The notes under the pieces are model-generated. The model did not search any database and was not told the DNA's origin. It saw only the letters and a list, made by a program, of their open reading frames with translations. From Anoxybacter fermentans (lineage in GTDB: Bacteria > Bacillota > Halanaerobiia > DY22613): a DNA stretch of 64,000 nt. The DNA lies in contig NZ_CP016379.1 in the NCBI RefSeq assembly GCF_003991135.1, forward strand, positions 744,001 to 808,000, written 5' to 3'. Shown piece after piece: positions 135 to 50,938 of the stretch. A program made the translations under genes and the position numbers. Each line of letters starts with the position of its first letter. Positions within the stretch are counted from its first letter, which is position 1.

Positions 135-155
135 ATAATCGTTATAATTTGTCAA
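127..155 (-). promoter_or_regulatory. Repressor promoter
   Basis: On the minus strand TTGACA (155-150) and TACAAT (132-127) are separated by 17 bp, a near-consensus sigma-A promoter pointing into the repressor gene. Confidence 0.75.
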
Positions 156-163
156 GAACGAGC

Positions 164-192
164 TTGACAAAGGTGATACATTTTGTTATAAT
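164..192 (+). promoter_or_regulatory. Early rightward promoter
   Basis: TTGACA (164-169), 17-bp spacer and TATAAT (187-192) match both consensus boxes exactly. It starts the rightward early operon, divergent from the repressor, and is presumably shut off in the lysogen. Confidence 0.85.
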
Positions 193-273
193 GATACTAA
201 CAAAATGATTTAGATACAAAAAGTTTGTATTAACTTTGGCTTTGTGAGTTTAAATAAAAGGAGGTGAAGCAGG

Positions 274-387
274 TTGTGGATATATTTAGTATCGTTTTTC
301 CTATACGGCTTGGTAAGAATGATAGGAGTATGTCAACCGGTACCTCTGGCTGTTGAGTATTGCAACCACGCTTTTGAATTTGGCTGA
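274..387 (+). CDS. Possible small leader ORF (37 aa)
   Basis: A TTG start lies nine bases after AGGAGG and opens a 37-aa frame with a hydrophobic start (LWIYLVSFFLYG). An alternative GTG two bases on (276) opens a 26-aa frame. It is the first ORF after the early promoter. No family is recognised and it may not be translated. Confidence 0.25.
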   Translation: MWIYLVSFFLYGLVRMIGVCQPVPLAVEYCNHAFEFG

Positions 388-489
388 CGTTGGGCGGATG
401 GTGTGGGTAGCCAGAGGGTATCAACTGGACAGGTAATATCAGGTTAATGATTCTAAAATCAAGACCTCCTTAATGGCTAGAAAAAGCAT

Positions 490-594
490 ATGAGACCGGG
501 TGCTAAGGGTAAGTTGGGTCCTCCTAAGATGATATATTTGGCGGGGCGGAAGGCCCCGCCAGGGGATATGGATTTAAGAAAGGGGAGATATTGA
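490..594 (+). CDS. Possible small ORF (34 aa), basic
   Basis: The frame begins MRPGAKGKLGPPKMIYLAGR and is rich in Gly, Pro and Lys. It contains a strong GGCGGGGC/GCCCCGCC hairpin (540-559), which could alternatively be the real feature here. The frame ends exactly where the next candidate starts. No ribosome binding site was seen, so support is weak. Confidence 0.25.
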   Translation: MRPGAKGKLGPPKMIYLAGRKAPPGDMDLRKGRY

Positions 595-696
595 GTGGGT
601 ATCCCATACGAACGGATAGATGAAGATATAAGATCTTTAGTTAGAACTCTAAAAAAGGGAAGATCATTAAGATCTCCCCAGAGCAAGCTATTTTAG
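595..696 (+). CDS. Possible small ORF (33 aa)
   Basis: A GTG start lies seven bases after AGGGGAG, directly after the previous candidate's stop. The product starts VGIPYERIDEDIRSLVRTLK and is charged. It resembles a small phage early protein, but no family is recognised. The rest of 700-810 shows no gene. Confidence 0.3.
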   Translation: MGIPYERIDEDIRSLVRTLKKGRSLRSPQSKLF

Positions 697-817
697 TTAG
701 TGTGGTATTTAAGTAAACATCAGAATTTTACAAAATCCTTTCTAATTCTGGACATTGATAGTCAATTATTTTTAGATCGGATTTCGCATAGTGCGTACAG
801 AAAGGAGGGATATAAAT

Positions 818-1069
818 ATGCCAGGAGTACCTAGAAAACGTTTGAGGGAAATAAGACAAACAAAATATACACTGGAGGAATTTGCAAAGCTTGTGCATTC
901 AAGTCCTACCCACCTGAGTGACATTGAAAATGGGAAGAGAGATCCATCTCCGGAGTTAGCATCAGCTATTTGTAGAATTTTAGGGCGGAGTTTTTCTGAA
1001 CTTTTCCCTGACCTTCGCGAAAACTATATCAAAAAAAGCGCATTATTGTTAAGTTTAGCTACCCAATGA
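818..1069 (+). CDS. XRE-family HTH regulator (83 aa)
   Basis: A single helix-turn-helix fills residues 3-60: LEEFAKLVHSSPTHLSDIEN, then GKRDPSPELASAICRIL, the usual XRE pattern with a recognition helix followed by the ENGKRDPS turn. ATG 818 is chosen because AAAGGAGGG sits eight bases upstream; an in-frame GTG at 791 has no such site. Its position just after the early promoter suggests a Cro-like or early regulator. The C-terminal 20 residues carry no visible domain. Confidence 0.8.
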   Translation: MPGVPRKRLREIRQTKYTLEEFAKLVHSSPTHLSDIENGKRDPSPELASAICRILGRSFSELFPDLRENYIKKSALLLSLATQ

Positions 1070-1117
1070 TTGTGATTTGATAGTTTATATTCGAGCAAAA
1101 ACTAGGGGGTGTTGGAA

Positions 1118-1459
1118 GTGAGGAATAAGAGAAAAGAGACTATGACGGCTCAAGAGCTTGCTGATCTTTTGGGGATTAAAAGTGTACAGACAGTCTACAA
1201 GCTTCTTAACGAAGGTAAGATTCCAGGCGTGAAAGTAGGACACCAGTGGGTGATTCCCACCCAAGCAATTTTAGATTGGTTGTATGTTGCAGCATTAGGT
1301 AGTCAGAAGAGAATATTAGAGCATATAGGGGTGGATTTTGGAGAACTGATGGACTGGATAGCAAAACTTAGACATTACGAAAACTGTAGCAATCTTGATA
1401 ACTTGGTTAAAATGCCAGAGTTTGGCTCGATTAAGGAGGAGGTAGTTAATTTAAGGTAG
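1118..1459 (+). CDS. Excisionase/MerR-type HTH protein (113 aa)
   Basis: Residues 9-55 carry the winged-helix pattern of the excisionase DNA-binding family: MTAQELADLLGIK, then TVYKLLNEGKIPGVKVG. The GTG start at 1118 has AGGGGG eight bases upstream. About 55 residues without a known domain follow. It lies immediately before the partition cassette and could be an excisionase or a regulator of the cassette; the sequence cannot decide. Confidence 0.7.
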   Translation: MRNKRKETMTAQELADLLGIKSVQTVYKLLNEGKIPGVKVGHQWVIPTQAILDWLYVAALGSQKRILEHIGVDFGELMDWIAKLRHYENCSNLDNLVKMPEFGSIKEEVVNLR

Positions 1460-1464
1460 TTATG

Positions 1465-1559
1465 ATGTATTACAATGTAATACAATGTAAGACATTGTAA
1501 TACAAAATTCTAAAATCATTGAAATGACGGGCTTTTGAGTGTAATACATTTGTAATACA
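1465..1559 (+). repeat. parC: Iteron array, candidate centromere (parC) and parM promoter region
   Basis: Four tandem 10-bp units (1465-1504) follow the pattern aTGTAaTACA. Two more TGTAATACA copies, 11 bp apart, lie at 1540-1548 and 1551-1559, ending just before the parM ribosome binding site. Two groups of about one-turn direct repeats upstream of parM is the known layout of plasmid R1-type parC, where ParR binds and represses. The repeats are seen; the centromere role is inferred. Confidence 0.65.
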
Positions 1560-1572
1560 AGGAGTGATATAA

Positions 1573-2556
1573 ATGAGTAAAAATATTGCTGTTGATGTAG
1601 GATTTGGATTTGTTAAAGCGACGGATGGTAATAAAGAAGTGATTTTTCCATCTGTGGTTGGGGAAGGAAGGGAGATCAGATATAAACCAGGAGTAACGAT
1701 AAACAACGATGCGATAAAAAATCTTTTTGCTGAAGTTGATGGAGAAAAATATTTTGTAGGTGATTTGGCAACTCGACAAAGTGAATTTTTACAGTCTACT
1801 TTATCAGGTGATCGGACAAACTCTATTGAATATGATGTGCTCTTTAAGACGGCATGTGCACTTTTGAATAATGGTTCTACTGAAGTGAATATAGTAACGG
1901 GTTTACCCGTAAATGAATTTACACAGTATAAAAATACTCTTGAGAAAATGTTATTGCGGATTCATAAAATAAAGCTTAACGATATCAGTTATTCTTTTGA
2001 AATCAAAAGAGCCAAAATAATACCTCAACCTTTTGGAACAGTATTTAATTTACTTCTGGATGATCAAGGTGAGATTCAGAAAAGAGAGTATGTGAATATG
2101 AAAATTGGCGTGATTGATATTGGATTTAGGACGACAGATTTCATAGTGGTAGATTGTCTTGAATTTGTGGATAAATTAAGTTCTTCAACTACAGTAGCTC
2201 TTAGCTCAGCTTATAAGTTAGTTGGGCATAGCCTAAATGAAAGATTTGGAATAAACAAACCAATATATCAATTAGATAAGTTCATTCGGACAGGGTTTAT
2301 TCCATATAAAGGACAGCAGATGGACATTAGAGAGCTGGTTGGAAAAGCTTTTGCACTCACAACAAATAACATAATCAGCGAGGTTAGTTCTCTGTGGAAC
2401 ATCTGGGAACTTGATCAGATAATTATTACTGGTGGTGGAGGAGTTGAATTATACGCATATCTCAAGGCACATATAGATAACTGTGTGCTGGTAAATGAAG
2501 GGCAGTTCAGCAATGTTAAAGGTTATCTCAAATTGGCAAACAGATCTTTTAGGTGA
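1573..2556 (+). CDS. parM: Actin-like plasmid segregation protein (ParM/Alp type)
   Basis: The 327-aa product has the actin/ASKHA layout. Residues 1-16 give the phosphate-1 loop IAVDVGFGFVKA, residues 177-190 give phosphate-2 (IGVIDIGFRTTDF), and IIITGGGGVELY near residue 284 gives the adenosine motif. The family forms ATP-driven filaments that push DNA copies apart. ParM needs ParR and parC, and both are adjacent: the iteron array upstream and a ParR-like gene overlapping downstream. The length fits. A partition ATPase suggests that the element can exist as a low-copy circle. Confidence 0.8.
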   Translation: MSKNIAVDVGFGFVKATDGNKEVIFPSVVGEGREIRYKPGVTINNDAIKNLFAEVDGEKYFVGDLATRQSEFLQSTLSGDRTNSIEYDVLFKTACALLNNGSTEVNIVTGLPVNEFTQYKNTLEKMLLRIHKIKLNDISYSFEIKRAKIIPQPFGTVFNLLLDDQGEIQKREYVNMKIGVIDIGFRTTDFIVVDCLEFVDKLSSSTTVALSSAYKLVGHSLNERFGINKPIYQLDKFIRTGFIPYKGQQMDIRELVGKAFALTTNNIISEVSSLWNIWELDQIIITGGGGVELYAYLKAHIDNCVLVNEGQFSNVKGYLKLANRSFR

Positions 2557-2852
2557 TGATGATGGTGACAATTAGTATAAGGTTACGTCCTGGCAAGGAC
2601 AATGACATTCTGCAGTGGTGGGAAAGTCTTGATAAAGGGGAAAGATCGGGTATTGTGAGATCTATTTTAAGAAGTTATATCAATCAGGAAGATCAAAGTC
2701 AGCAGCGAGTTTCACGTCTGAATTTTGGTGTTAAAAAAGAAAATCTAGAAGATCTAGGTGATATTGAGTTTAGAATGGATTTTCCAGCAAGCGAAAACGA
2801 AGATGATAATGAAATCGACAAAAAGGTTGACCTACTGGTAGATCAATTTTAA
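2553..2852 (+). CDS. parR: ParR-like centromere-binding protein (99 aa)
   Basis: It is a small protein with an N-terminal segment typical of ribbon-helix-helix/ParR proteins (ISIRLRPGKDNDILQWWESL, then GERSGIVRSILRSYI) and an acidic C-terminus (SENEDDNEIDKKVD). The start overlaps the parM stop; several start codons follow in a row (2553, 2556, 2559, 2562). ParR proteins bind the parC iterons and the filament end. The call rests on the sequence pattern plus the parM-parR order. Confidence 0.65.
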   Translation: MMMMVTISIRLRPGKDNDILQWWESLDKGERSGIVRSILRSYINQEDQSQQRVSRLNFGVKKENLEDLGDIEFRMDFPASENEDDNEIDKKVDLLVDQF

Positions 2853-2903
2853 AACTTATAAGCAGTCGTGGCTCTAAGACAACAAGGAGGTAAGTAAATA
2901 AGT

Positions 2904-3075
2904 CAACTTCTCCCGACTGAAGTTGGGAACTTGAAACCAATAGTCACATTCAACACAACCTGATTTAAAGAGTTCATCGCAGGTATATCTTTCAAGAAAA
3001 TTTTCTAGAAAGGTGGTGAAAAACGTCGTCTTTTCTCCTCCGACTAAAGTCGGAGGTTTCCAGGCGACAGACTTT
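2904..3075 (+). repeat. Dispersed hairpin cassette, copy 1 (about 172 bp)
   Basis: It starts with a hairpin (CCCGACTGAAGTTGGG) and ends with a second one (CCTCCGACTAAAGTCGGAGG) followed by TTTCCAGGCGACAGACTTT and ATGA. Nearly the same 170 bp occurs at 20187-20359, a 3' part at 14346-14414, and reduced forms at 25912 and 48875. Terminal hairpins without terminal inverted repeats resemble IS200/IS605-derived non-autonomous elements. No transposase is present. Confidence 0.7.
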
Positions 3076-3399
3076 ATGAATGAATTTGTACTAGGTCAAT
3101 TAGATGCTTACTGTTATATGGTGGAAAGAGGAAAACCTGCTGCAATGATCCCAGTCCAGAAACATTATACTGCTGAAGCTATTAAATTTATTTCTAAGTG
3201 TTCTAATTCAAAGTTGAAGGTGTTTGTAGAAAATTTATCTGACGATTGGGATACTCTTTGGATATATAAATATCCGCATATTTTGGAGGTAATTAAAGAA
3301 CTGCAGCAGGCTCCTGATAATATTTTTTCAAAATGGGCTTTAGGGAAACTTTTTGGATATGATGAGGAATCAATTCAAAATTTCATTAACCGATCTTAA
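3076..3399 (+). CDS. Hypothetical phage protein (107 aa)
   Basis: No recognisable family. The product is mixed alpha-type (MNEFVLGQLDAYCYMVERGK at the start). The frame is open upstream to GTG 3013, but that part is the dispersed cassette, and where two other copies have a GTG start this one has GCG. ATG 3076, exactly at the cassette end, is therefore chosen; it has only the distant GGAGG in the hairpin. The last 14 bases overlap a convergent minus-strand gene. Confidence 0.5.
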   Translation: MNEFVLGQLDAYCYMVERGKPAAMIPVQKHYTAEAIKFISKCSNSKLKVFVENLSDDWDTLWIYKYPHILEVIKELQQAPDNIFSKWALGKLFGYDEESIQNFINRS

Positions 3400-3636: not shown

Positions 3637-4551
3637 ATGATGTTGTACGAACAAATTGTAATTAGACATCGAAATCGTAGGGGATATGTTCAAACGTATA
3701 ATGAGTTGTATGACTTATATCAGCCAATTTTAGGGCATGCGACAATCTCAGTATATAACAATTTGATGCGTTATGTTAATAACATTATGGATCATGAAAA
3801 CAATGGATTTTCGTATCCAACATTGGACATGCTTGCAAAAAAGATGAGAATGGGGAAGAGGACTATAATCCAGGCACGGCAAAAGCTGGAAAGCATGGGA
3901 CTTCTGGAAGTTTACTATGAGAGAGTCAAATTAGGTAATCTTAACTATAACAAATATTATTACGATCTCATTGATCCACTGGAATATCATGAATTTTTTC
4001 TGAAATATGGTGAATTATTGAGACAAGAAGCAGGAGATCAATATTATCAAGAAATATTCAAGCCAATCTTTGAAGCTGAGAAAGCTGTTCTCGGGGTTTC
4101 AAATGAAACTCCGAAGAAGGCTTATCTCGAGGTTTCAAATGAAACCTCGGTCGGGGTTTCAAATGAAACCGTAAAAAAACAAAGTATACTAAAAAGACAA
4201 ATATATAGTAGTAGTAGTATACATAGGACAGGCGCATTTGGAAAATCAATATCAGAAGCAGAACAAATTTCTATTTTGGAAAATTTGTACATTGACACAC
4301 TGGGACTGAGTACATTTGACAGTAACACAACCAAAATGATCAAGCACCTGCTTTCCAAATGGGATTTTGAATATATCCGGAAACAAATGGAATATACGAA
4401 AGAGAAGATTGAGGAGTATTCTCTCAGATACCATCCATCGGAGGAAAAGGGTATTAGAAGCTATTGGGGTTTTGTTTATTGTGCTTGTCGTGACAATTAT
4501 GCAAAAGCTAGAATTAAGAGCTATCCTGAACATTGGGAAAAGGAGGGTTAA
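3637..4551 (+). CDS. Phage replication initiator (winged-helix Rep/DnaD-like, 304 aa)
   Basis: Residues 15-110 have the winged-helix layout of phage/plasmid replication initiators: a helix-rich segment (ELYDLYQPILGHATISVYNN), then YPTLDMLAKKMRMGKRTI and LESMGLLEVY. The C-terminal 90 residues resemble the DNA-binding tail of DnaD-type proteins (SKWDFEYIRKQMEYTKEKI, YWGFVYCACRDNY). ATG 3637 has AAGGTGG five bases before; upstream in-frame starts have nothing comparable. The middle of the gene carries three palindromic repeats (separate entry), as in phages whose origin lies within the initiator gene. Confidence 0.7.
   Translation: MMLYEQIVIRHRNRRGYVQTYNELYDLYQPILGHATISVYNNLMRYVNNIMDHENNGFSYPTLDMLAKKMRMGKRTIIQARQKLESMGLLEVYYERVKLGNLNYNKYYYDLIDPLEYHEFFLKYGELLRQEAGDQYYQEIFKPIFEAEKAVLGVSNETPKKAYLEVSNETSVGVSNETVKKQSILKRQIYSSSSIHRTGAFGKSISEAEQISILENLYIDTLGLSTFDSNTTKMIKHLLSKWDFEYIRKQMEYTKEKIEEYSLRYHPSEEKGIRSYWGFVYCACRDNYAKARIKSYPEHWEKEG
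4095..4170 (+). repeat. Three palindromic iterons plus AT-rich tract: candidate replication origin
   Basis: GGTTTCAAATGAAAC(C/T) occurs at 4095-4110, 4131-4146 and 4155-4170. Each copy encodes VSNET in the initiator protein. A strongly AT-rich tract rich in TA steps follows (4171-4225), like a DNA-unwinding element. Repeats plus AT-rich DNA inside the initiator gene parallel lambda ori in gene O. The origin function is inferred. Confidence 0.6.
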
Positions 4552-4553
4552 CT

Positions 4554-4808
4554 GTGAGAAGGGTTGGAAATGTTTATTTTTTGGACGAGTTTAGAGGATC
4601 AATAGAGCAACCGATTGAGGAACCGGGAATAGAAGAGGTTCTTGAAAAGGTCTTTGAAGTTATCGACCGTTTTCGCAAAAAACTTCAACAGAAAGGAGGT
4701 GAAACTCATGACCTGGCAACACAAGTTGCAGATTCTTATTCTGATGTTGTTATGGGTGGTAACGTTGTGGATTTATGTAAAATCAGGCGTTGTAAGCTTC
4801 ATGGGTGA
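4554..4808 (+). CDS. Hypothetical protein (84 aa)
   Basis: GTG start with AAAAGGAGG seven bases upstream, immediately after the rep stop. The product begins MRRVGNVYFLDEFRG and has an acidic amphipathic middle (PIEEPGIEEVLEKVFEVIDR). No family is recognised. The last 100 bases overlap the next gene in another frame, which is unusually long; one of the two may end or start elsewhere. Confidence 0.45.
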   Translation: MRRVGNVYFLDEFRGSIEQPIEEPGIEEVLEKVFEVIDRFRKKLQQKGGETHDLATQVADSYSDVVMGGNVVDLCKIRRCKLHG

Positions 4809-4941
4809 AGCGTTTAGAATTGTTTTGACCAAAGAAAAAGAACCAGATTCTCAGCTGGAACCTGGTTCAAATGAAGAATTGGAAAGCAAAATGGAACCTA
4901 ATGTAATTGTATCACAAAGAAGACATAATTTCAATGCCTGA
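4708..4941 (+). CDS. Small membrane protein (77 aa)
   Basis: AAAGGAGG precedes the ATG by eight bases. Residues 8-28 form one hydrophobic helix (LQILILMLLWVVTLWIYV), followed by a charged tail rich in Glu and Lys. No family is recognised; a single-pass phage membrane protein. Confidence 0.55.
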   Translation: MTWQHKLQILILMLLWVVTLWIYVKSGVVSFMGEAFRIVLTKEKEPDSQLEPGSNEELESKMEPNVIVSQRRHNFNA

Positions 4942-35040: not shown

Positions 35041-35061
35041 AATAAATTGGAGGTACTGGCG

Positions 35062-38000
35062 ATGGGGCAAAGATTAACTATTATTGAAGATTTTCAACAG
35101 GGTACCCTCAATAATGTCATTAACTCAGCAGGTACGCTTAAACTTGTGCAATTAACAAATGCATTCCCGCACAGTCAGTCTTTTGAAGACTGTGCGGGTG
35201 AGCATATTGGAGATATTAATAATTCAAATGCTGTTAAAACAGATATTGGTGGAGGGTGGCAAGTAGCTACTCATTATAATACAACTACCATTAGAGTAGA
35301 AACCGACGGTGGCTATCATGGAACTAAACGATTAGCTTTCATCCATGATGGCTCTTCTGGCTGGAAGGGTGCAGTTTCAGGCGCCCTTAGCGTTATAGCA
35401 GGTAAATGGTACAGGGTATCTGTCAGAGCAAGAGCTAATATGAAATCCAGTCAGGTGTTTAGTGAAGGATATGCCTTTTATGTGTATGGTGTATATTCTG
35501 TAAAATTCAGTTGGAATGTCAAACCTACAGACAACCCGGGAAAATGGGTGACTGGTGTTGCGATTTTTCAAGCACCAGATAATTATACAGGATATATGTA
35601 TCTTTATGGTTTAACTGATGGAGAAAATGGATTGATTTTAGAATATGATGCTGTTATGTGGGAAGAATTTGATGCTGATCCCACTAATCAACCTTTTGGA
35701 TTCACTGTTAATACCGGTTACCCAATTGAAGGAGGAGAGCGGATTTCTCCAGTTGTAGACATTTCAGCAGTCGGCATAGCGCAAAAATCTAGATGTAAAC
35801 AAACTGCTGCCATTCCCACAGACACTAATATCGAATTATATAGTTCATTGGATGATGGGAAAACCTGGCAAGGTGTTGTACCGGGTTGGAATCCATTAGC
35901 ATCAAGAATAGGCCTTAAATTTGATGGTGTTGACGATTATGTCTATATTCCAAGCCAATCTTATCTAGCTTTGACAGGTGACGAACCTGAGACCGTTGAA
36001 ATGAGGGTAAAGCCAAATGACAAAGCAAGCAACTATTTCCTTTTTCAGGCAAACACATGGAGCAGGCGTATGGCGTGGAGTGGCTATAAGTTTTATGTGC
36101 TTGTTACTGACATTGATGGCACGTTACATCAATTAGTGACCCCAAATAATTATGCACCAAACAATGTATACCATATAACTTATACATTTGACGAAAATTA
36201 TGTATTATCTGTGTATGTAAATGGTGAACTGGCTGTTCAAAAAACAATAGGTAAACCCTTAAAACCTGCTGACAGTTATTGGTGGTTTGGCAGCGCTAGA
36301 GCAGGTAGTGATACTTGTTATTTCGATGGTACGATTTATGAAGCAAGATTTTGGAGAGGTATCGCGCGCACTCAAGCAGAAATTCAAGCGGATATGGATA
36401 AACACCTTACCGGCGATGAAACAGGTTTAATAGGATATTGGACATTCAATACCGGTGAGGGTAGTACAGTTAAAGATCGTGTGTACAGAGGAAATTATTA
36501 TCGCGCAGACGGAACTATTTATGGCGCGCAGTGGGATGTTGAAAAAATATCCGGGTATGTAGTAGGTCAACAATTATTACTTAAACAGAAACTATTAACT
36601 GATGATCCTTCTAATACACCCCAATTGCAATCATTAGAAACGATTATTACGCCAGCAAATGCATTAGTTGTTACAGATTCATTTAAAAGTAATTGTAAAG
36701 ACTTTAGTTTAAGAAATGAGCATAACATTGACGTTTATAATGTTACCAAAGCTGCCTATATCACTCAATATATTGATCTAACCAGCCTGGATATTAGATG
36801 CGAAGAAACTGGCATATTTGGGCATTCTTCAGCAAATACATTAACATTTGATATTGAACTTTCACCAACTGATGATATTTCTACAATTATACAAGAGGGA
36901 GATGTTATCAGGGTAGAAGAGACTTTTAATAATGAACAAATTACAATTTTTGTAGGCTATGCAGATAACCCACCTGTAGAATATAACAATCTCAAACATA
37001 GATTTCGAATAGAAGCATATGATTACATTAAACGAGGCATACAATATATATTCCAGGACCATGAAGTAAAAACCAATTGGTATTTATGTAATAATGACGC
37101 ACCTGATCAATCTTTGGCACACTATTTAGGCACTTTAATGGGCTTTAGCTATAATGATATGTTATTCGAAGACATTACTGATGCAAACGGTAATTATATT
37201 ACAATCCCATATGCCCACTTAGAGCGTGGTAAAAATGTTTTAGCAGAATTTTCTACTTTGGTACAAAGCGTTTGTGGAAAGTTGTTTGTAAATCATGATG
37301 GAGTATTAGTTTTAACTTCGCCATTCAATGAAGAAGATTTTTACGATATTAATGTAACCTTCGACGATAACATTTTAGGAAAAATAGAAGTAAAATCAAT
37401 TCCAGCTACAAATGATGAAGTACGTGTAATATATGATACATTTCATATAGCTGAGAGGCAAGTTTGCTGGATGCTATATGATAAAACCAGTTATGACGAA
37501 ATAAATGATAAAGCTAATATGTTGTTACCCGCTGGAGAAACAAGCGCATGGATAAAGATCCAGCTAGTAACGCCAATATGTCTTAACCTTGAAGGAGCTG
37601 CACCGGAAATAGTGGTAGAAGACGCTAATGGTAATGATATGAGTGCTTATTTCCAATATGATCTTGAATTGGACATGACCGGTGGTAAAGTTCGATTTTA
37701 TAACTTACACAGTACCGAAGATCTATACATTCAAAAATTCAAAATATATGGCCAACCGTTAGAAAAATTATCCGGCAATGAATATATTTACTCTGAAGCA
37801 ACTACTCCCAACAATCCATTAGAAATTAAAAACAAATTCATTCAAACTGATAGTTTAGCTGAAGCAGTAGCGAAATATACTTACCACATGACTTGCAAAG
37901 ACAGAAAACTATATAAGTTTAAAACGTGCTATGCACCTTATTTAGCTTTAACTAATAAAGTTAAAATTCAAAAACGAGACATTAATACAGAAGCAGTAGT

Positions 38001-40422
38001 AACAAGATACACTCATGCAGTCCAAGATAACTATTTAGTTACAAAGGTTGAATTGTTGGAGTTTATACCGTATGAGGGTTTTCCTGGCAATTTGACCGCT
38101 ATACAAACAGCCCCTAACATTAAAGACGATAAAACTGAATTTACTTTCAGTAAGATGGAAAATGACGGTATATTTCCAGAGGGATTGCCGGTACCACAAC
38201 CAACGGGTGTAGTCGGAATTGGTTCTTTTAAGCATATTTTTATTGAATGGAATCCGGTAGATAGAAGGGATCTATTGGGATATAACATTTATGTTGATGA
38301 TGGTAATAGCTATAAACAATATTTTACGAAGGCAACGTTCTGCAGCATAGAGGCGGAAAGTGGTGTTACATATAATGTTCAAGTAACAGCAGTTACTCTG
38401 GCCGGTGAAAGTACCAAAACTACAGCAATTCAGGTTACAACAGCCAGTGGGGTAGATTGGTCAGAAGTCGTAAACGCTGCAGTTAATACGAATGATATTG
38501 TAGATAGGGCTATTTCTACGGTTAAAATTGCTCTTGATGCAATTACCAGCGACGAGATAGCAAATAGTGTAGTACAAACTGCTCATTTAATTAACCAAGC
38601 GGTTACTGCCACTAAGATTGCTTTATTAGCTGTGCAAACTTCTCACATAGAAAATCTGGCTGTAGATACAGCAAAAATCAATGATTTAGCTGTTACTACT
38701 GGTAAATTAGTTGATTTAGCAGTACAATCAGCCAAAATTAACGATCTTGCAGTTATTTCGACAAAGATAGCAGACCTGGCTGTGGCGACTGCAAAAATAG
38801 CAGATTTAGCTGTTACTAATGCTAAAATTGCTTCTCTGGCCGTTGCTGAAACAAACATTCAGGATGGCAGCATTACTAACGCAAAAATCGCAAATGCAGC
38901 TGTGGATAATGCCAAAATTGCTAATGCAGCTGTGGACAGCGCAAAAATTGCTAATGCGTCGATTACCAGCGCACATATTCAAAACCTGGCTGTGCAGGAT
39001 GCACACATTCAGGATTTGAACGGTAGTAAGATACATGCCAAATCAATCACAGCAGAGCAGATACGAGCAGGTGAATTTTTACCAATAGCAAAACCAGAAG
39101 GTGCTCATCTCTGGCATTTTGATCGCTCGTTAATATCTACCGATGGTATTAGGCCGGAAGGTACACCAATTGCTACATTGCGACTAAACGAAGGAAAATT
39201 TGGAGGAGCGGTAGCAGTAGAAGAGGGAACGGAAAATTTATTGGCGACTGTTGGTGGAGGAGCTGCTCAAGATTGGAGTAAATGGTCGCATTGGAATAGC
39301 AGTTACTGGGGGAAAACTGAACAGTATGATGATGAAAAATGGGGTAAGGTTTTCAAAGGCACAAAGGATGGAGCAAGTTCATCTAGTACTTATATTTACG
39401 ACTATTATCCTTATTCTTATGCAGTAGGAGATGTATTAACATTTTCTTGCTATATGAGGGTTAATAAAGATATAACCAAAACTATAGATTTTTATGTCAA
39501 TTCAAGTGCTGGAGGTCAACATCATGTAGCGACTCCGGATTCTAAAGTAATAACTTTCAAAGCTGGAGAGTGGCAATATATTACGTGGACTTCTGGGCCT
39601 GTAACTGAGACCGTAAATGGAACAGGTGGATTTGGTCTTGCCATGGGTTCTGGCTGGGAAGGATATGTAGTGGAAATAGCTTATCCCCAGCTCGAGAAAA
39701 AACCTTTTGCTACTTCTTTTGTAAATGGCACAAGAGCAAGCGGGGACTTGGCTTATTCAGCAGATATAATTGATGTAAACAAAACTACGTGGCATTTTGT
39801 ATGGATACCAGAACAGTCTTTAGATAGTATGGTAGACCAAGCGAGTTATCCTAAAATATTATCAGTAGGAGAATATTATAAAAACAACTCATTTGTATTA
39901 TGGTTTTACGACAAATACATTGCTTTGTATATTAAAGGTTCGACTGCCTATCACTGGTCTGCTGCTCCTTCTTGGATTCCTCCTGCTGGTTGGTATCAAC
40001 CGTATAACAAATACACCTTTGATGTACAAATAGAAAACGGTAATCATTTTAAGGTATATTTAGATGGGGAATTAATTATTGAAACTACTATAACTGACAG
40101 CTTTACAGGTGTGGCCGGCAACAAATGGTGGGTAGGTGATAATACTACCAGCAGTGCTGCTAATGCTCTATTTGATGAATTAATGGTATCGAACGAAATA
40201 CACACAGCTGAAGAAATCAAAGCATGGTGCGAATCGCAAGCACCATTTTTTGATAACGAATCAGTAGTTAGTGGTGGTAGTACTATAATTGATGCTAATG
40301 GTTTTAGAGCTTATGATGGTAATGGATTATTAATGATAGAACTTAATTCGCAAAAAGGTACAGGATTTTTTAAAGGGTCGATAGAGGCTGAGGAATTTAT
40401 TCTACCGATAAGGTCGGTGTAG
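35062..40422 (+). CDS. Large tail / receptor-binding protein with two LamG-like domains (1,787 aa)
   Basis: ATG 35062 follows GGAGG. Layout: a beta-sandwich (about 30-215), a LamG-like domain (285-475; LKFDGVDDYVYIPSQS, GLIGYWTFNTGEGS), a tail-hub-type part (540-720), an FnIII domain (1046-1126), a repeat tract (1135-1335) of ten- to eleven-residue units such as AVDNAKIANAAVDSAKIANA, a second carbohydrate-binding/LamG-like part (1380-1715), and a short C-terminal cap (GFRAYDGNGLLMIELNS). LamG domains bind glycans, so it is a likely adhesin and tail fibre. The repeats probably form a fibrous shaft. Confidence 0.8.
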   Translation: MGQRLTIIEDFQQGTLNNVINSAGTLKLVQLTNAFPHSQSFEDCAGEHIGDINNSNAVKTDIGGGWQVATHYNTTTIRVETDGGYHGTKRLAFIHDGSSGWKGAVSGALSVIAGKWYRVSVRARANMKSSQVFSEGYAFYVYGVYSVKFSWNVKPTDNPGKWVTGVAIFQAPDNYTGYMYLYGLTDGENGLILEYDAVMWEEFDADPTNQPFGFTVNTGYPIEGGERISPVVDISAVGIAQKSRCKQTAAIPTDTNIELYSSLDDGKTWQGVVPGWNPLASRIGLKFDGVDDYVYIPSQSYLALTGDEPETVEMRVKPNDKASNYFLFQANTWSRRMAWSGYKFYVLVTDIDGTLHQLVTPNNYAPNNVYHITYTFDENYVLSVYVNGELAVQKTIGKPLKPADSYWWFGSARAGSDTCYFDGTIYEARFWRGIARTQAEIQADMDKHLTGDETGLIGYWTFNTGEGSTVKDRVYRGNYYRADGTIYGAQWDVEKISGYVVGQQLLLKQKLLTDDPSNTPQLQSLETIITPANALVVTDSFKSNCKDFSLRNEHNIDVYNVTKAAYITQYIDLTSLDIRCEETGIFGHSSANTLTFDIELSPTDDISTIIQEGDVIRVEETFNNEQITIFVGYADNPPVEYNNLKHRFRIEAYDYIKRGIQYIFQDHEVKTNWYLCNNDAPDQSLAHYLGTLMGFSYNDMLFEDITDANGNYITIPYAHLERGKNVLAEFSTLVQSVCGKLFVNHDGVLVLTSPFNEEDFYDINVTFDDNILGKIEVKSIPATNDEVRVIYDTFHIAERQVCWMLYDKTSYDEINDKANMLLPAGETSAWIKIQLVTPICLNLEGAAPEIVVEDANGNDMSAYFQYDLELDMTGGKVRFYNLHSTEDLYIQKFKIYGQPLEKLSGNEYIYSEATTPNNPLEIKNKFIQTDSLAEAVAKYTYHMTCKDRKLYKFKTCYAPYLALTNKVKIQKRDINTEAVVTRYTHAVQDNYLVTKVELLEFIPYEGFPGNLTAIQTAPNIKDDKTEFTFSKMENDGIFPEGLPVPQPTGVVGIGSFKHIFIEWNPVDRRDLLGYNIYVDDGNSYKQYFTKATFCSIEAESGVTYNVQVTAVTLAGESTKTTAIQVTTASGVDWSEVVNAAVNTNDIVDRAISTVKIALDAITSDEIANSVVQTAHLINQAVTATKIALLAVQTSHIENLAVDTAKINDLAVTTGKLVDLAVQSAKINDLAVISTKIADLAVATAKIADLAVTNAKIASLAVAETNIQDGSITNAKIANAAVDNAKIANAAVDSAKIANASITSAHIQNLAVQDAHIQDLNGSKIHAKSITAEQIRAGEFLPIAKPEGAHLWHFDRSLISTDGIRPEGTPIATLRLNEGKFGGAVAVEEGTENLLATVGGGAAQDWSKWSHWNSSYWGKTEQYDDEKWGKVFKGTKDGASSSSTYIYDYYPYSYAVGDVLTFSCYMRVNKDITKTIDFYVNSSAGGQHHVATPDSKVITFKAGEWQYITWTSGPVTETVNGTGGFGLAMGSGWEGYVVEIAYPQLEKKPFATSFVNGTRASGDLAYSADIIDVNKTTWHFVWIPEQSLDSMVDQASYPKILSVGEYYKNNSFVLWFYDKYIALYIKGSTAYHWSAAPSWIPPAGWYQPYNKYTFDVQIENGNHFKVYLDGELIIETTITDSFTGVAGNKWWVGDNTTSSAANALFDELMVSNEIHTAEEIKAWCESQAPFFDNESVVSGGSTIIDANGFRAYDGNGLLMIELNSQKGTGFFKGSIEAEEFILPIRSV
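35166..35198 (+). repeat. Perfect 11-bp inverted repeat inside the tail gene
   Basis: CCCGCACAGTC (35166-35176) pairs with GACTGTGCGGG (35188-35198) around an 11-base loop, about 105 bases into the coding sequence. No T-run follows. It could slow translation or be a protein site; it may also be chance. Confidence 0.5.
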
Positions 40423-40426
40423 TACT

Positions 40427-41584
40427 ATGAATAGTCAGCAAGGTAAAATCTGGATAGACGGTAGTTATTTATGTATATGGAGGTATGGCGAAGCTAATTA
40501 TTATAAAATTCTGGGGGAGATTGCGGGAAATGACCCGAATACTCCCCCGGGTACTCTTTATTTAGAAGTCGGGCGAATTGTTTATCACGATACAAGTTAC
40601 AATAAACGCATTATTAGAGTTAAGCAGAATACAAGCTATCCTACAAGTAGGCAGGATGGAAGCCTGGCTATAGACCCTGTTAATTATTTATGGTTTGCTT
40701 GGCAGGGATATAAGTATGAAGTAACACATGAGGATGCTAGTCATAGTGATATGAACCTTCATGATGATATAGCTGCTAGAAGTTCTAGTTACCATTCTGA
40801 TATTAGTTATTCAGACCATGATGACCATGAGGATTCTGCTCATAATGACTGGAATGATTACACTGATGAGTACATCAATTGGAGCGATTATACAGATGAC
40901 CCTCCTCACCAAGATTGGTCAGATTGGAATGACTATAATAACTGGAGTGATTACATTGATGATTACGGTAATTGGGCAGATAATGTTTTACATCAAGATT
41001 GGAACGATTACACTGATGAATATATAAATTATTCTGACCACAATGATACAGTTCATAGTGATTGGAGTGATTATAACGATGTAACTCATAGTGATTGGAG
41101 TAACCATAATGACCTTTATTGGAGTGATTTTGGTTTTGATGACCATACTGACTGGTCAGACTATAATAATACAGCTCATACCGATTGGTCTGACTATAAT
41201 GATACTCATAGTGATTGGAGTAACCACTCTGACGGATATGCTTCGCCAGTATGGAGTGACCATAATGATGTTCCACATAGTGATTCACATACTGACCAAT
41301 GGTATTCGCCAGCATGGAGTGACCATAATGATGTAACAGGAGTAAATTGGTCCGACCATACTGATGTACATGAAGATGATTGGTCTAATCATACTGATAG
41401 TTATGCATATCCACCTTATAATGACCACTATGATACTGCTCATACAGATTATAGTGACCATAGTGATAGAGACCATAGTAACCATAGTGATTATTCAGAC
41501 TCTCCACATTATGATTATACAGACCATTTAAATGCTTCCCATGCAGACAATCCTATACCGGCTCCTTATACAGATAATAGCTAA
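40427..41584 (+). CDS. Repetitive tail protein with aromatic/His-X-Asp triads (385 aa)
   Basis: Residues 1-100 form an ordinary beta-type tail domain (GKIWIDGSYLCIWRYGEANY; DPVNYLWFAWQGYKYEV). From about 105 to the end almost every third residue is Asp or Asn, preceded by Ser/Thr/Asn and an aromatic or His: WSDYNDVTHSDWSNHND is typical. I count about 64 such triads. There are few Lys, Arg or Leu. The composition is highly acidic and could bind cations or sugars. The next two genes encode a radical SAM enzyme and a DUF483-like protein, suggesting modification of these triads. No known family for the repeat part. Confidence 0.7.
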   Translation: MNSQQGKIWIDGSYLCIWRYGEANYYKILGEIAGNDPNTPPGTLYLEVGRIVYHDTSYNKRIIRVKQNTSYPTSRQDGSLAIDPVNYLWFAWQGYKYEVTHEDASHSDMNLHDDIAARSSSYHSDISYSDHDDHEDSAHNDWNDYTDEYINWSDYTDDPPHQDWSDWNDYNNWSDYIDDYGNWADNVLHQDWNDYTDEYINYSDHNDTVHSDWSDYNDVTHSDWSNHNDLYWSDFGFDDHTDWSDYNNTAHTDWSDYNDTHSDWSNHSDGYASPVWSDHNDVPHSDSHTDQWYSPAWSDHNDVTGVNWSDHTDVHEDDWSNHTDSYAYPPYNDHYDTAHTDYSDHSDRDHSNHSDYSDSPHYDYTDHLNASHADNPIPAPYTDNS

Positions 41585-41634
41585 TATAAGTTTTTAAATT
41601 TATTTAGAAGTATAATAAGGGAGGTTTAATAAAG

Positions 41635-43020
41635 ATGAGTTTAAGTATTAAAGTAACAAATACTGTATGTCAAGCTGGATGTGAGTATTGTTATGAGATT
41701 CCTTTAAGAGAAAATGGAAGAGGAGTTAGGCCTTTTGATTTGGATGCTATTATGAATGAGATGGAATATGAATGGAAAAAAACTAGTTTAGGTCAATCCG
41801 GTCAAATTTACCTTCACGGTGGAGAAGCATTGACTGCAGGACATGAAGTAGTAGAAAAACTGCTGAGGAAAGCTTATGAATTGAGCGGAAGTTCAAGTAT
41901 TCAGACATATGGATATTTAATTGATGATAGATATATTAAGATATTTAAGAAGTATAAAACTTCTGTTGGAATTAGTATTGACGGTCCATATCCATTAAAC
42001 GAGTTGAGAAAAGTTCCAGGCCAAAATACAGAAGAAATTACAAAAAAAGTACATGAAAACATTAAAAAGTTGAAGGATAATGGAATTAGTGTAGGAATGA
42101 TAGTCGTTCTTCATAAAAAGAATGCAGTAGGAGATAGATTAAATAGATTAAAAGAATGGATAATAGAACTTCGAGATAAATATGGAGTTGATGGCGGTAG
42201 GCTTAATATGATGGTAGGAATTCATCCACAAGCAAAGAAATATGAATTAACTCCAGAAGAAGCTAAAATAGCGTGGACTGAATTGGCCAAGTTAGTTCTT
42301 GTTGAAGAAGATGAATTACATTGGCAGCCTTTCCATGATATTGTATCTAATTTACTTGGACTAGAACAAGGCACTTGTACATTTAATGCATGTCAGTATT
42401 ACCATGCTCATACTGAACCGGTAATATTCTCTGATGGTAAAACAGGTACTTGCTTAAAAACTTGTGGAAAAGACGGGCATGTTTATCCTAGGTATCTTGA
42501 TTATAAATGGTATGACGATTCTCAAAAAAGGTTTGGACTTATTAGATATGATATTTTACCCAAAATTCCACAAGAAGATGGTGGATGTAAAGGCTGTAAA
42601 TACTGGAGAAATTGTTTGGGAGGTTGCCCATCAGCAGGAATTGATAATGACTGGAGAAATAAAACCAGATTTTGTGAAGCATTGAAAGGTTTATTTGAGT
42701 TAGTAGAAAAACATCTTAAACGTCTTATGCCTAATATTGTCCTCTCTACAGATAAGGAGGTTACATTTCTTTCTAAATATGGTATAACTGGAATGCAACC
42801 TAAAGCTTTTGTATATATGGACTATGACACAGCAAAACGTCCCAGCTCCTGGAGAAGGGAAGCTAAAGAATCTAAAAAAGAGAATCATATGCAGATTAGA
42901 GTTCCAATAAAAGGTTTAAACGGAGATGGATGTAAGCAGTTTACCTCACCCATAGAACATTTGGACGGACATATTAGACATTTGGATAGTAATTATCATG
43001 ATTTAAAGGGGGAGTTATGA
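41635..43020 (+). CDS. Radical SAM/SPASM peptide-modifying enzyme (461 aa)
   Basis: The cluster motif is C12-x3-C16-x2-C19 (VCQAGCEYCYE), with the SAM-binding LHGGEAL near 64 and GISIDGP near 116. The C-terminal part has SPASM/Twitch-type cysteines (GTCTFNAC, GTCLKTCG, GGCKGCKYWRNCLGGCPSAG near 316), as in peptide maturases such as anSME and RiPP enzymes. A 95-residue tail follows. GGGAGG precedes the ATG. It stands in the tail operon between the triad-repeat protein and the DUF483-like gene, whose start overlaps its stop. The likely substrate is the repeat protein. Confidence 0.85.
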   Translation: MSLSIKVTNTVCQAGCEYCYEIPLRENGRGVRPFDLDAIMNEMEYEWKKTSLGQSGQIYLHGGEALTAGHEVVEKLLRKAYELSGSSSIQTYGYLIDDRYIKIFKKYKTSVGISIDGPYPLNELRKVPGQNTEEITKKVHENIKKLKDNGISVGMIVVLHKKNAVGDRLNRLKEWIIELRDKYGVDGGRLNMMVGIHPQAKKYELTPEEAKIAWTELAKLVLVEEDELHWQPFHDIVSNLLGLEQGTCTFNACQYYHAHTEPVIFSDGKTGTCLKTCGKDGHVYPRYLDYKWYDDSQKRFGLIRYDILPKIPQEDGGCKGCKYWRNCLGGCPSAGIDNDWRNKTRFCEALKGLFELVEKHLKRLMPNIVLSTDKEVTFLSKYGITGMQPKAFVYMDYDTAKRPSSWRREAKESKKENHMQIRVPIKGLNGDGCKQFTSPIEHLDGHIRHLDSNYHDLKGEL

Positions 43021-43874
43021 TGATTAAAATGGATGCTAAGAAAGATTTTGTGGTAGGGTTGGATGTTCCACCTACTGCGGAAATAATTTGGAATGACCCA
43101 GATGCTGAAGAAGAGTGGGGTAGTATTGTTGAACGAGCAAAAACTTTGCATTATAGATTAGAGTATGAAATGGTAAAGCATAAAAAGAGAAAGTGTGCTA
43201 CACTTCATATAAGTCCACGTAATTATGATAAGGATATAGAAAGGATTTTATCTGATGGTTTAGTATGGTTACCTATTCAAAGAACTAAGTCTTATACCGG
43301 ATTTAGTCATAAACATTTTCCGGTAGATGAACTTGATATGAATTCTAATGTTTATGGAGTTTTAGCTAGAAATCTGGAAGATGCTGAAGATTTCCGAGCC
43401 CATAGTATGCAGAAAAAAGTAAATCATAAAGGAATAGGTAAATTGTTAGGCTTTCCAAAATGTTGTAGTGGATTTTTTGTAGAAGAATGGAGTAATGGAT
43501 TTTACGACCCTGTGTATCAATCCGCATTAAAATCAAAGAATGTAAAAGAAATTGGAGAAAGACATATAAAAATTAGACCTCATATAGCAACTCATCAAAT
43601 GATGAGATATGTAGGATTTAGGTTAACTTCTCATTTTCCTTGCAGTTTGGATTGTAAAGATAGTATAGAAATAGGGAAAGTATGGTATGATTTAGCTAAG
43701 AAAATTGACCCTCAAGGATTAAGAGCTTTGGAGAGGATTCTTACTTTACCTGGAAGATGGGAAGTTCTACATGGAGTAGCTGTAGTAGTTACTGAACCAT
43801 TTACGATTATAGCCAATAGTATTCCTACCAAAGAAAAATGGGTAGTAGAGTGGGATGAAGTAGATACTTATTAG
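43017..43874 (+). CDS. DUF483-like protein (285 aa)
   Basis: The motif KLLGFPKCCSGFFVEEW near residue 142 and LTSHFPCSLDCKDSIEIG near 203 resemble DUF483 proteins with their GYPxCC pattern; four conserved Cys suggest metal or cluster binding. It is translationally coupled to the radical SAM gene (ATGA overlap), which suggests a joint complex, perhaps for substrate recognition or a second modification. I do not know a function for the family. The terminator at 43899 ends the unit. Confidence 0.6.
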   Translation: MMIKMDAKKDFVVGLDVPPTAEIIWNDPDAEEEWGSIVERAKTLHYRLEYEMVKHKKRKCATLHISPRNYDKDIERILSDGLVWLPIQRTKSYTGFSHKHFPVDELDMNSNVYGVLARNLEDAEDFRAHSMQKKVNHKGIGKLLGFPKCCSGFFVEEWSNGFYDPVYQSALKSKNVKEIGERHIKIRPHIATHQMMRYVGFRLTSHFPCSLDCKDSIEIGKVWYDLAKKIDPQGLRALERILTLPGRWEVLHGVAVVVTEPFTIIANSIPTKEKWVVEWDEVDTY

Positions 43875-43918: not shown

Positions 43919-43984
43919 TATATCTAAGAGATTTAGGTAGTGTCAAAAAATCTATGAGAAAAGGATTCAGAAAGGATGATCAAA

Positions 43985-44416
43985 ATGTCAATACAAGAGA
44001 TAATGGACAGTATCAAAAAAGTACTTGAAGCCCCATTGTTCAAAGGGGTTTTTTCTTTTGTCGGATTGGTTTTAACTAAACTCTTTGGAAAGCCTGACAC
44101 TGCTTTACAAGCATTCATTATGCTTCTGATTCTTGATTTAATAACAGGTTTTATTAAGGCATTTTTATCCGGAAGTGCAAGGTCTTTTATCTCCCACGAA
44201 AAAGGTCGGAAAAAATATTTAGGTTATGCTGTGGTACTTTCAGTTTGTCATCTTCTTGATATGGCAGCTGTCCCAGGTTTACGTAATGTGGCTCTATTCT
44301 GGGGAAGTGCTACAGAAACCTATAGTATCTTAGAAAATATGGAAGAGATGGGTGTGCCTATGCCTGAATTCATTAAACAACAATTAAACAATACCAAAAA
44401 AAAGTACAAGCTTTGA
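43985..44416 (+). CDS. Phage holin (phi29/TcdE-type, 143 aa)
   Basis: Three hydrophobic segments: VFSFVGLVLTKLFG, ALQAFIMLLILDLITGFIKA and YLGYAVVLSVCHLLDMAAV, plus the family ending ILENMEEMGVPMPEFIKQQL. This is the phage_holin_4 pattern. It opens the membrane at the end of the lytic cycle. ATG 43985 follows AAAGGATG. The amidase gene comes next. Confidence 0.85.
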   Translation: MSIQEIMDSIKKVLEAPLFKGVFSFVGLVLTKLFGKPDTALQAFIMLLILDLITGFIKAFLSGSARSFISHEKGRKKYLGYAVVLSVCHLLDMAAVPGLRNVALFWGSATETYSILENMEEMGVPMPEFIKQQLNNTKKKYKL

Positions 44417-44426
44417 GGTGATCGGA

Positions 44427-44978
44427 ATGAAAAGAATAATTTGTATTGATCCAGGCCATGGAGAACCGTGGCCTGGTGCTGTTTTCGGAGATATAAAAGA
44501 GAGTGAATTCTGTCTCGATGTAGGTAATTTTCTATCAAGAGAACTACAGAGACGGGGACATATTGTAGTACAAACAAGGTACACATCATCTGCGATCGTC
44601 CCCGGGAGGCTAACAGAAGACCTTACAAGGCGTGCTGAAATTGCTAACCAGATCGAAGCTGATATTTTCCTTTCACTGCATTTCAACTCTCACCCAAACC
44701 ATGAGGCAAACGGCGTAGAAACCTGGTATTTCAAGCACTCGACTAAAGGTAGATATTTGGCAGAATTGATTCAAAATCAACTTATTAAGAAATTTAAGAT
44801 GCGTAACCGCGGGATAAAAGGTTCCCGCGGTTTAATTGTTTTGAAAAAAACCCTGATGCCTGCTGTACTGATTGAACTGGGATTTATTACTAATCCGAGA
44901 GATAGAAATATTATGACTGCATCTGTTTATCCAGAAAGGGTTGCCTGTGCAATTGCTGATGGAGTAGAAATTTTTTAA
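44427..44978 (+). CDS. N-acetylmuramoyl-L-alanine amidase (endolysin)
   Basis: 183 aa Amidase_3 domain without cell-wall-binding part. Zinc ligands and catalytic residues are visible: IDPGHGE near the start, ESEFCLD, FLSLHFNSHPNHEANGVE near 80, and the catalytic Glu in AVLIELGFITNPRD. It cleaves peptidoglycan during lysis. GAGGTG precedes ATG 44427. It lies between two holin-type genes. Confidence 0.9.
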   Translation: MKRIICIDPGHGEPWPGAVFGDIKESEFCLDVGNFLSRELQRRGHIVVQTRYTSSAIVPGRLTEDLTRRAEIANQIEADIFLSLHFNSHPNHEANGVETWYFKHSTKGRYLAELIQNQLIKKFKMRNRGIKGSRGLIVLKKTLMPAVLIELGFITNPRDRNIMTASVYPERVACAIADGVEIF

Positions 44979-49756: not shown

Positions 49757-50938
49757 CTAGATAGAATTCGATGAACTTTGGAGCATTTTTTCTAACTTTT
49801 CAACAGCTTCTTTTTGTAGGCTTGGAAGGACATGCGAATAAGTATCCATAGTTATAGTTATGGAGGAGTGTCCTAGTCTTTCCTGAACTATTTTCGGATG
49901 AATTCCGGCCTCCAGCATGAGAGTAGCATGAGTATGCCTTAAATCATGGAATCGTACGTCAATAGAGGATTTTTCCTTTACTCTGTTGAATCTATGTCTT
50001 ATGGCGTCCGGGGTGATCGGCGACCCATCGGTATTAGTGAAGACAAGATTATATTCATTTTTATAACTTTCTCCCAGGAGTAAGCGGTTTTGTGCTTGCT
50101 CTTTTTTTATTTTTTTAAGTATGTTTACCACACTATCAGGCAAACTAATCATTCTTATGCTTCCTTTTGTCTTTGGAGTGTCAAATCGATAACCGCCTTC
50201 AAGAGCTTTTTGTAATGTTTGCTGGATACTGGCGGTTTTGTTTTTGAAGTCTATATCGGACCATCTTAAGCCTAACAGCTCTCCTCGTCGCATACCGGTG
50301 AATATCGCTATGTATATTAGTCCGTAAGTTGTATAGTCATAAATTTCTTTAGTCGTGTTGAGTAGTTTTTTAATTTCCTGTGCATTCATGGTTTTCATTT
50401 CTTTTTTCTTTGGCTTTGGAGGGTCAACGGCATTTGCGGGATTACGATGTATTATTTGGAGTTTTACAGCATGCTGGAAAGCTTCTCTATAGAATCCTAA
50501 AATGATATTGTACTGATCTATTTGAAAGGCCGCCTTTTCCGTTTCTACGGCCGTTTTTGAGCTTCTCAGTAATGTATGACTGCAGATGTATAGGCTGAAG
50601 TTTCTGAAGCTGAATCTAACCCGAATCAGGAATAAGATGCTTTTCGATGATTATTTTGTAATTATCAAGCGTGGAGGACTTAAGGTTGACCCCATGATTC
50701 TGAATCCACTGTCTCAGATACTCCGCGAAGTTATATTTTTTGCTTCGACATACGTCCCCTTCAGGACTTCTACTTCAATTTCTTTGGCTTTAGCCAGGGC
50801 TTCTCTTTTGTTCCTGGCCTTTATCGTTCTCCGGATCCGCTTCCGTTTCCCGGTTACTGGGTTCCGCTCAACGTCAATTTCGATTCTTCAACTGTTTTTT
50901 CCTCTCTTTTCTAGATACGCCACCCTTTCACCACTCCT
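49757..50938 (-). pseudogene. int: Tyrosine integrase, broken by stops and frameshifts
   Basis: The C-terminal 213 codons (50398-49757) are intact and hold the catalytic residues: Arg in FTGMRRGELLGLRW, RFHDLRHTHATLMLEAG, ERLGHSSITITMDTYSHVL. Upstream, pieces of the arm-binding and core-binding domains appear in changing frames (NPVTGKRKRIRRTIKARNKR; EYLRQWIQNHG-like; LQKLQPIHLQSYITEKLKNG), with stops between them. The 3' end faces the att site 90 bp away. It belonged to a second element, now immobile. Confidence 0.85.

Follow-up and report, generated by a model that had tools for sequence, protein, structure and literature searches.

A radical SAM/SPASM enzyme and a neighbouring aromatic-x-Asp/Asn triad protein in an Anoxybacter fermentans prophage: a candidate system for cross-linking a phage tail protein

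The triceptide enzymes (XncB, OscB/GrrM, MscB, YxdB, HaaB and YhhB) and the dynobactin maturase belong to the radical S-adenosylmethionine (rSAM)/SPASM class and act on small precursor peptides. As set out in the available part of a 2024 review (PMC11002830), the triceptide unit joins an aromatic residue (W, F, Y or H) to a partner two positions on (D, N, S, R or A; i,i+2), with Trp-Asn/Asp, Phe-Asn, Phe-Ser, Tyr-Asp, His-Ala and His-Arg links reported. Such three-residue links lock peptides in a β-strand-like form (PMC12257519). A second described system is the three-gene rSAM module of the Thermus phages Cumys and phiMa, also noted in prophages, for which Kolesnik et al. 2024 suggested a role in DNA modification and called two of the genes unknown (PMC11437467, as far as the accessible text goes). 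Here, we describe a locus from Anoxybacter fermentans that resembles both. It occupies positions 40,427 to 43,874 of a 64,000 nucleotide stretch of the chromosome (contig NZ_CP016379.1, positions 744,001 to 808,000; the whole stretch is referred to as the window), and consists of genes for a tail protein rich in aromatic-x-Asp/Asn triads, an rSAM/SPASM enzyme of the same class as the triceptide enzymes, and a DUF483 protein. We consider it very probable that the rSAM modifies the triads of the adjacent structural protein and, by analogy with these enzymes, likely that the products are i,i+2 cross-links.

40427-41584, + strand: triad protein, 385 residues
40427..40738, + strand: N-terminal part of the triad protein, residues 1-104 (repeats recognised by eye; tblastn matches to phiMa and Cumys)
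40739..41581, + strand: triad region, residues 105-385, with 67 non-overlapping [HWYF]-x-[DN] triads
41635..43020, + strand: rSAM/SPASM enzyme, 461 residues (open reading frame 41635-43020)
42829..43017, + strand: C-terminal tail of the enzyme, residues 399-461, predicted to be disordered, with the triads HLD, HLD and YHD
43017..43874, + strand: DUF483 protein, 285 residues, no good fold match

The first-pass annotation of the window had described about 64 triads of the form (W/Y/H)-(S/N/T)-(D/N) in the last 280 residues of the tail protein, followed directly by an rSAM/SPASM gene and an overlapping DUF483 gene. The open reading frames (ORFs) are found in this arrangement and the Pfam matches agree, while the count of 67 non-overlapping triads in the last 281 residues is close to the original figure. 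Within residues 105-385, 67 of the 77 aromatic residues have D or N at +2 (His 31/31, Trp 17/18, Tyr 18/26 and Phe 1/2), with the next offsets reaching 0.56 (-1) and 0.51 (+5). Shuffling the composition of this region 5000 times gave a mean of 25 triads (standard deviation 3.5, maximum 38), as compared with the 67 observed. The aromatic and D/N positions of the proposed form hold, whereas position 2 is looser than had been described, being S in 27, N in 13 and T in 11 of the 67 triads and mixed in the others. Position 1 is W, Y or F in 36 of the 67. The triad protein has no match among NCBIfam or PHROGs profiles; inspection by eye reveals GxIWIxG-type repeats in residues 1-104, as in Thermus and uncultured phage homologues.

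The association of enzyme and triad protein was examined in both directions. Profile scans with the rSAM and DUF483 families, which hold no neighbour-gene information, yielded 80 rSAM clusters at 80% identity, a set that derives from rSAM- and DUF483-based searches and is not a random genome sample. The first seed alignment (A1) was built from loci already seen with triads and holds rSAM sequence only, tails included; the scan patterns for rSAM lay in the core and not in the tail. An ORF with at least five HxD/N per 150 residues was found within 1.5 kb of the enzyme gene in 60/80 clusters, as compared with 10/996 distant ORFs (75% versus 1%; adjacent ORFs took the score of their best member, a slight bias in their favour). 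A dense triad ORF was present anywhere in the fetched stretch for 58/80 clusters, and the union of these two criteria comes to 69/80. Beyond these 69, one cluster (L051) has a triad ORF on its own contig but at the opposite end (L055), and in two more, aromatic triads of another type were recognised by eye, namely F-x-N/Q/S units in a phage repeat protein (L092) and H-x-K units in a Chitinophagaceae protein (L122). The phage protein (L092:3015-4805) ends in its repeats (TPFAQ, GFVN) just 5' of the rSAM gene, with a collagen-like gene slightly upstream; the Chitinophagaceae protein (L122:4052-6670) carries its units (PHIK, PHVK) at the C-terminus and is encoded directly 5' of the rSAM gene.

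The reverse search used DNA patterns for four HxD units and was blind to the enzyme; its counts are a sample among the matches listed, and some of the loci are closely related to each other or overlap the forward set. Simple repeats and other-frame artefacts were separated from aperiodic triad proteins by sequence complexity. Among the matches listed, 28/32 aperiodic triad loci have an rSAM gene in the fetched stretch and three more have one elsewhere in the same record, giving 31/32, with the lone remaining locus being a 10 kb fragment. Simple tandem HxD repeats mostly occur without the enzyme (29/42 loci among the matches listed), as expected if they are unrelated to the system; this group includes a freshwater phage protein (L154, L183, L205 and L211), for which an rSAM gene is present in one of four records. 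The co-occurrence anticipated by the first-pass annotation is therefore seen in both directions, and rather than being mostly apart in homologous phages, repeat protein and enzyme are paired in many unrelated viruses. That the rSAM and the triad protein belong together is strongly supported, and the pairing recurs across very different viruses and some cellular genomes.

Sources of the system include Thermus phages, haloarchaea, Chloroflexota, Nitrospinaceae and Bacteroidota. The full set of components is found in haloarchaeal Halovenus and Halomicrococcus sequences, while a large protein with C-terminal H-x-D units is encoded before or near the rSAM in Cohnella, Nitrospinaceae, Aquimarina, Owenweeksia/Cryomorphaceae, a Myxococcales metagenome-assembled genome (MAG) and others. 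Candidate substrates in relatives reach 1476 residues, some with more than 100 units. The system had been thought of in terms of phage tails; it is not confined to them, because some chromosomal loci that use the large C-terminal H-x-D proteins lack an obvious phage setting. All three components are present in the Thermus phages Cumys, phiMa and phiLo. The three genes of Cumys and phiMa are homologous to those in the window, adjacent and in the same order, whereas the phiLo triad gene lies about 4.4 kb off on the other strand. The module, initially taken to be undescribed, had thus already been published for Thermus phages, albeit as a suggested DNA modification system, and no mention of the triads was found in the accessible text of that paper (PMC11437467). 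The window module is a distant relative of the Thermus one (rSAM 31% identical overall to that of Cumys; repeat protein 27-28% by tblastn), and half of its triads start with W, Y or F, in contrast to the Thermus triads, which mostly start with H.

Comparison of the triad regions of 58 clusters reveals that 97% of His residues have D/N at +2, the next best offset being 48%; the figure is 96% when regions are picked by composition alone. Position 1 is H in 82%, Y in 11%, W in 4.5% and F in 2.4% of cases, and position 3 is D in 89% and N in 11%, while the start-to-start distance between triads varies (3, 4, 5, 6, 7 and more). Substitution rates were taken from close pairs only, replacing an all-pairs count, because alignments of distant repeats favour triad-on-triad matches. 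For 22 homologous pairs at 70-97% identity, which are partly non-independent such that the rates are descriptive, position 1 is changed in 7% (about two thirds aromatic to aromatic) and position 3 in 15% (mostly D/N swaps), as compared with 41% for position 2, 48% for the linkers and 20% for the N-terminal part. Judged from these alignments, the conserved unit is an aromatic ring with D/N at a fixed distance, joined by linkers that vary, in keeping with the earlier argument that an aromatic side chain is linked to the residue two positions on. The choice of aromatic tracks rSAM distance (Mantel r 0.32, 0/5000 permutations).

Triads also occur in the enzyme itself. For loci with triad proteins, the density of H-x-D after the last SPASM cysteine is 4.1 per 100 residues, as compared with 0.16 in the rSAM core, and 45/55 rSAM tails contain at least three triads. 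Such tails are partly expected in close relatives, because the seed sequences carried them, and the window enzyme (..IEHLDGHIRHLDSNYHDLKGEL) provides a weak example. Nonetheless, it is difficult to account for triad-bearing tails if the enzyme does not itself deal with triads. From these sequence patterns, the triads are very probably the substrate of the rSAM.

The window enzyme matches the Pfam Radical_SAM model (8e-13) and contains a CxxxCxxC motif (C12, C16 and C19) as well as eight further conserved cysteines in the SPASM region (248, 253, 273, 318, 321, 327, 331 and 347), all eleven being invariant in 50/50 members. Comparison with models of cyclophane maturases gave, as score and cut-off in bits, 93.1/450 for DynA, 73.3/425 for AmcB, 63.9/445 for YhhB, 53.3/310 for GrrM/OscB, 41.6/370 for FxsB and 37.6/450 for XyeB; the sulfatase maturase model TIGR03942 scored 76.6, below its cut-off of 349.45 bits. 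The DynA, AmcB, YhhB, GrrM/OscB and sulfatase maturase models each match 52/52 members. The predicted structure has a mean predicted local distance difference test score (pLDDT) of 82 (Thermus sequences were left out of the structure-prediction alignments), with anSMEcpe and ChlB as the closest folds. anSMEcpe is the closest solved relative by both sequence and fold, and the SPASM cysteines are common to both enzymes. However, anSMEcpe has an Asp directly after a SPASM-region cysteine, which we take to be catalytic there, whereas the aligned residue following C273 is L in the window enzyme and D in only 1/50 members. The next best fold match is the rSAM maturase ChlB (9gm3, 9gmc), with a template modelling (TM) score of 0.74-0.76 by target length and about 18% identity. 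Literature searches for ChlB and for cyclophanes in phage tails yielded nothing useful, although papers may still exist. Identity as a sulfatase maturase was rejected on the basis of the TIGR03942 score and the rarity of the anSMEcpe-aligned Asp, and membership of a named cyclophane family on the basis of scores that all fall below the curated cut-offs. By sequence, the enzyme is of the same broad class as the sulfatase and cyclophane-forming maturases, and outside the named families.

The window DUF483 protein scores 29.4 bits against PF04467, above the gathering cut-off of 25, and has no match in NCBIfam or PHROGs. Its conserved residues are P147, C149, C150, D164, C213 and W248, of which C149, C150, C213, D164 and W248 are nearly or fully invariant across members. 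This set would be compatible with a metal or Fe-S site, but does not prove one. The predicted model is confident (pLDDT 96.5); we claim no function for the protein, because fold searches in the PDB and BFVD gave nothing convincing (best TM by query below 0.3). The rSAM and DUF483 form a single polypeptide in Cohnella, Nitrospinaceae and a Pirellulales MAG, which suggests that the two act together. A 6 kb contig from a genome of the host's class (L377; G048:C41) encodes a triad protein and a triad-tailed rSAM (152-3088 and 3879-4853) and has no DUF483, with other radical-SAM-like genes following the rSAM. From this arrangement, the rSAM and the triad protein look like the core of the system.

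Further genes accompany the rSAM and DUF483 at some loci. In Cohnella, the gene after the rSAM-DUF483 fusion (L104:10044-11333) has a Pfam Endotoxin_N match and a weak jacalin lectin match. A similar-looking fourth gene follows rSAM and DUF483 at the chromosomal loci L112:9982-11439 (which has a weak P-loop kinase-like match), L114:9984-11381, L118:10004-11443 and L107:10055-10909. A single viral contig (L073:5090-10691) holds two rSAM and two DUF483 genes, followed by a triad-rich ORF.

We propose that the rSAM/SPASM enzyme would act post-translationally on many aromatic-x-Asp/Asn triads in the neighbouring tail protein, linking the aromatic ring (His, Trp, Tyr or Phe) to the β carbon of the residue two positions on with a change of -2 Da each, such that dozens of three-residue cyclophane-type rings would arise within one structural chain. 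The first-pass annotation had likened the enzyme to those that form three-residue cyclophanes, and this comparison is apt: the aromatic i,i+2 links reported in the available part of the review (PMC11002830) cover most of the aromatic/partner choices among the triads. By analogy, an i,i+2 cross-link is the likely product. The DUF483 protein probably acts on the same substrate, either in delivery or in a second step, and the triad-bearing rSAM tail may serve as a tethered mimic of the substrate or be modified by the enzyme itself. The β-strand-like locking reported for three-residue links (PMC12257519) forms the basis of the idea that a flexible Asp-rich stretch at the tail tip could be turned into a series of strand-like elements that is stiff and resists proteases and heat; roles in fibre stiffening and receptor binding are speculation. 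The system is set apart from the triceptide systems by its DUF483 partner, by the triads in the enzyme's own tail, by scores far below the curated cut-offs, and by a candidate substrate that is a tail or large structural protein with up to more than 100 units. No small precursor peptide with a leader is found beside the window enzyme, where the neighbouring candidate is the 385-residue tail protein.

Several points weigh against this proposal. The enzyme scores far below the curated cut-offs of every named maturase family, and the reaction type is for this reason assigned by analogy. No classical leader peptide or recognition element (RRE) is evident at the locus, and the available part of PMC11002830 reports no link for His-Asp, the most frequent pair in the present set. 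The 80 forward clusters were drawn by searches with the rSAM and DUF483 families, and no triad protein was found for 8/80. These eight derive from Bradyrhizobium, Sphingomonas, Pseudoalteromonas, Plesiocystis, one Halorussus plasmid and three viral contigs; two viral contigs among them are shorter than 9 kb, and two of the eight (L020 and L022) have triads near the rSAM C-terminus. The Bradyrhizobium and Sphingomonas rSAMs likely have a substrate other than a triad protein. The loci concerned (L119-L121, L126-L128, L130 and L131) contain rSAM and DUF483-like genes and no triad proteins, and an upstream gene for a B12-binding radical SAM protein is present in L119.

Of the alternatives, the one that survives best, though we consider it unlikely, is that the rSAM acts on the triads with other chemistry, such as Asp epimerisation, a C-O or C-N link, methylation or oxidation. 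The SPASM fold class also holds thioether enzymes, epimerases and sulfatase maturases, and weak C-terminal methyltransferase matches occur on three viral DUF483 proteins (L026:8173-9582, L079:6932-8449 and L117:8923-10770). However, the window DUF483 has no methyltransferase match, and single-residue Asp chemistry accounts neither for an i,i+2 spacing that is fixed nor for a position 1 at which H, Y, W and F replace one another. It is considerably less probable that the triads form an unmodified metal-binding or acidic β-structure needle, with the rSAM acting elsewhere. His and Asp are good ligands, and metal-binding His motifs occur at phage fibre tips (T4 gp37), but metal ligands are not found consistently at the repeated position, given the 36 W, Y or F residues at position 1 in the window, and the F-x-N/Q/S and H-x-K variants exist. 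The near-obligate two-way association with the rSAM and the triads in rSAM tails would, in addition, stay unexplained.

The proposal of Kolesnik et al. 2024, in which the module of the Thermus phages serves to make an unusual DNA modification, appears highly improbable, even though related genes lie near deazapurine genes in cyanobacteria according to the available part of that paper (PMC11437467). The third gene of the module encodes a triad-repeat tail protein, the tail of the enzyme bears the same triads, and its closest relatives by structure have peptides or proteins as substrates. Least credible of all is a chance link between a low-complexity repeat and unrelated cargo genes, for although cargo is often found between the tail and lysis genes and simple HxD repeats do exist without an rSAM, the aperiodic proteins conserve positions 1 and 3 against divergence at position 2 and in the linkers, and unrelated viruses and cells show the same pairing.

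The setting of the module in the window is that of a prophage tail operon, as the first-pass annotation had it. The window comes from a chromosome of 3.56 Mb, and the identical stretch is listed in IMG/VR as a predicted provirus. Genes for terminase, portal, major head and minor tail proteins and tape measure lie upstream of the module, and the remaining neighbours are as follows.

35047..40422, + strand: tail-fibre-like protein, 1791 residues, with a laminin-G-like domain, directly 5' of the triad gene
43976..44416, + strand: holin, lysis module directly downstream
44418..44978, + strand: N-acetylmuramoyl-L-alanine amidase, lysis
49757..50398, - strand: phage integrase near the prophage end

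The fibre gene ends 4 bases before the triad gene, the rSAM gene, which has a GGAGG site, begins 50 bases beyond the triad gene, and the DUF483 start overlaps the rSAM stop by 4 bases, a layout that reads as one late operon. The 1791-residue protein ends in ..FILPIRSV, similar to the ..VLPVG(T/S) with which genes at or close to this position end in L006, L008 and Cumys.

We know of no earlier radical SAM modification of a virion, and the rSAM peptide substrates known to us are small peptides with few sites, none with dozens per chain. Whether the locus represents an unrecognised maturation class, shared by cells and by bacterial and probably also archaeal viruses, in which rSAM and DUF483 staple tens to more than 100 units into a polymer-like cross-linked fibre, we regard as evenly balanced. 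The proposed role differs from that put forward by Kolesnik et al. 2024 for the module in Thermus phages, of which phiMa and Cumys are cultured on T. thermophilus HB8. If the proposal holds, radical chemistry at dozens of sites per protein would give virus tails a covalent armour or scaffold, and DUF483, a family without a fold match here, would gain a biological context. The system would also supply new enzymes for making stapled protein polymers, and would offer a route to the role of such fibres in host attachment and in virion stability at high temperature or salt.

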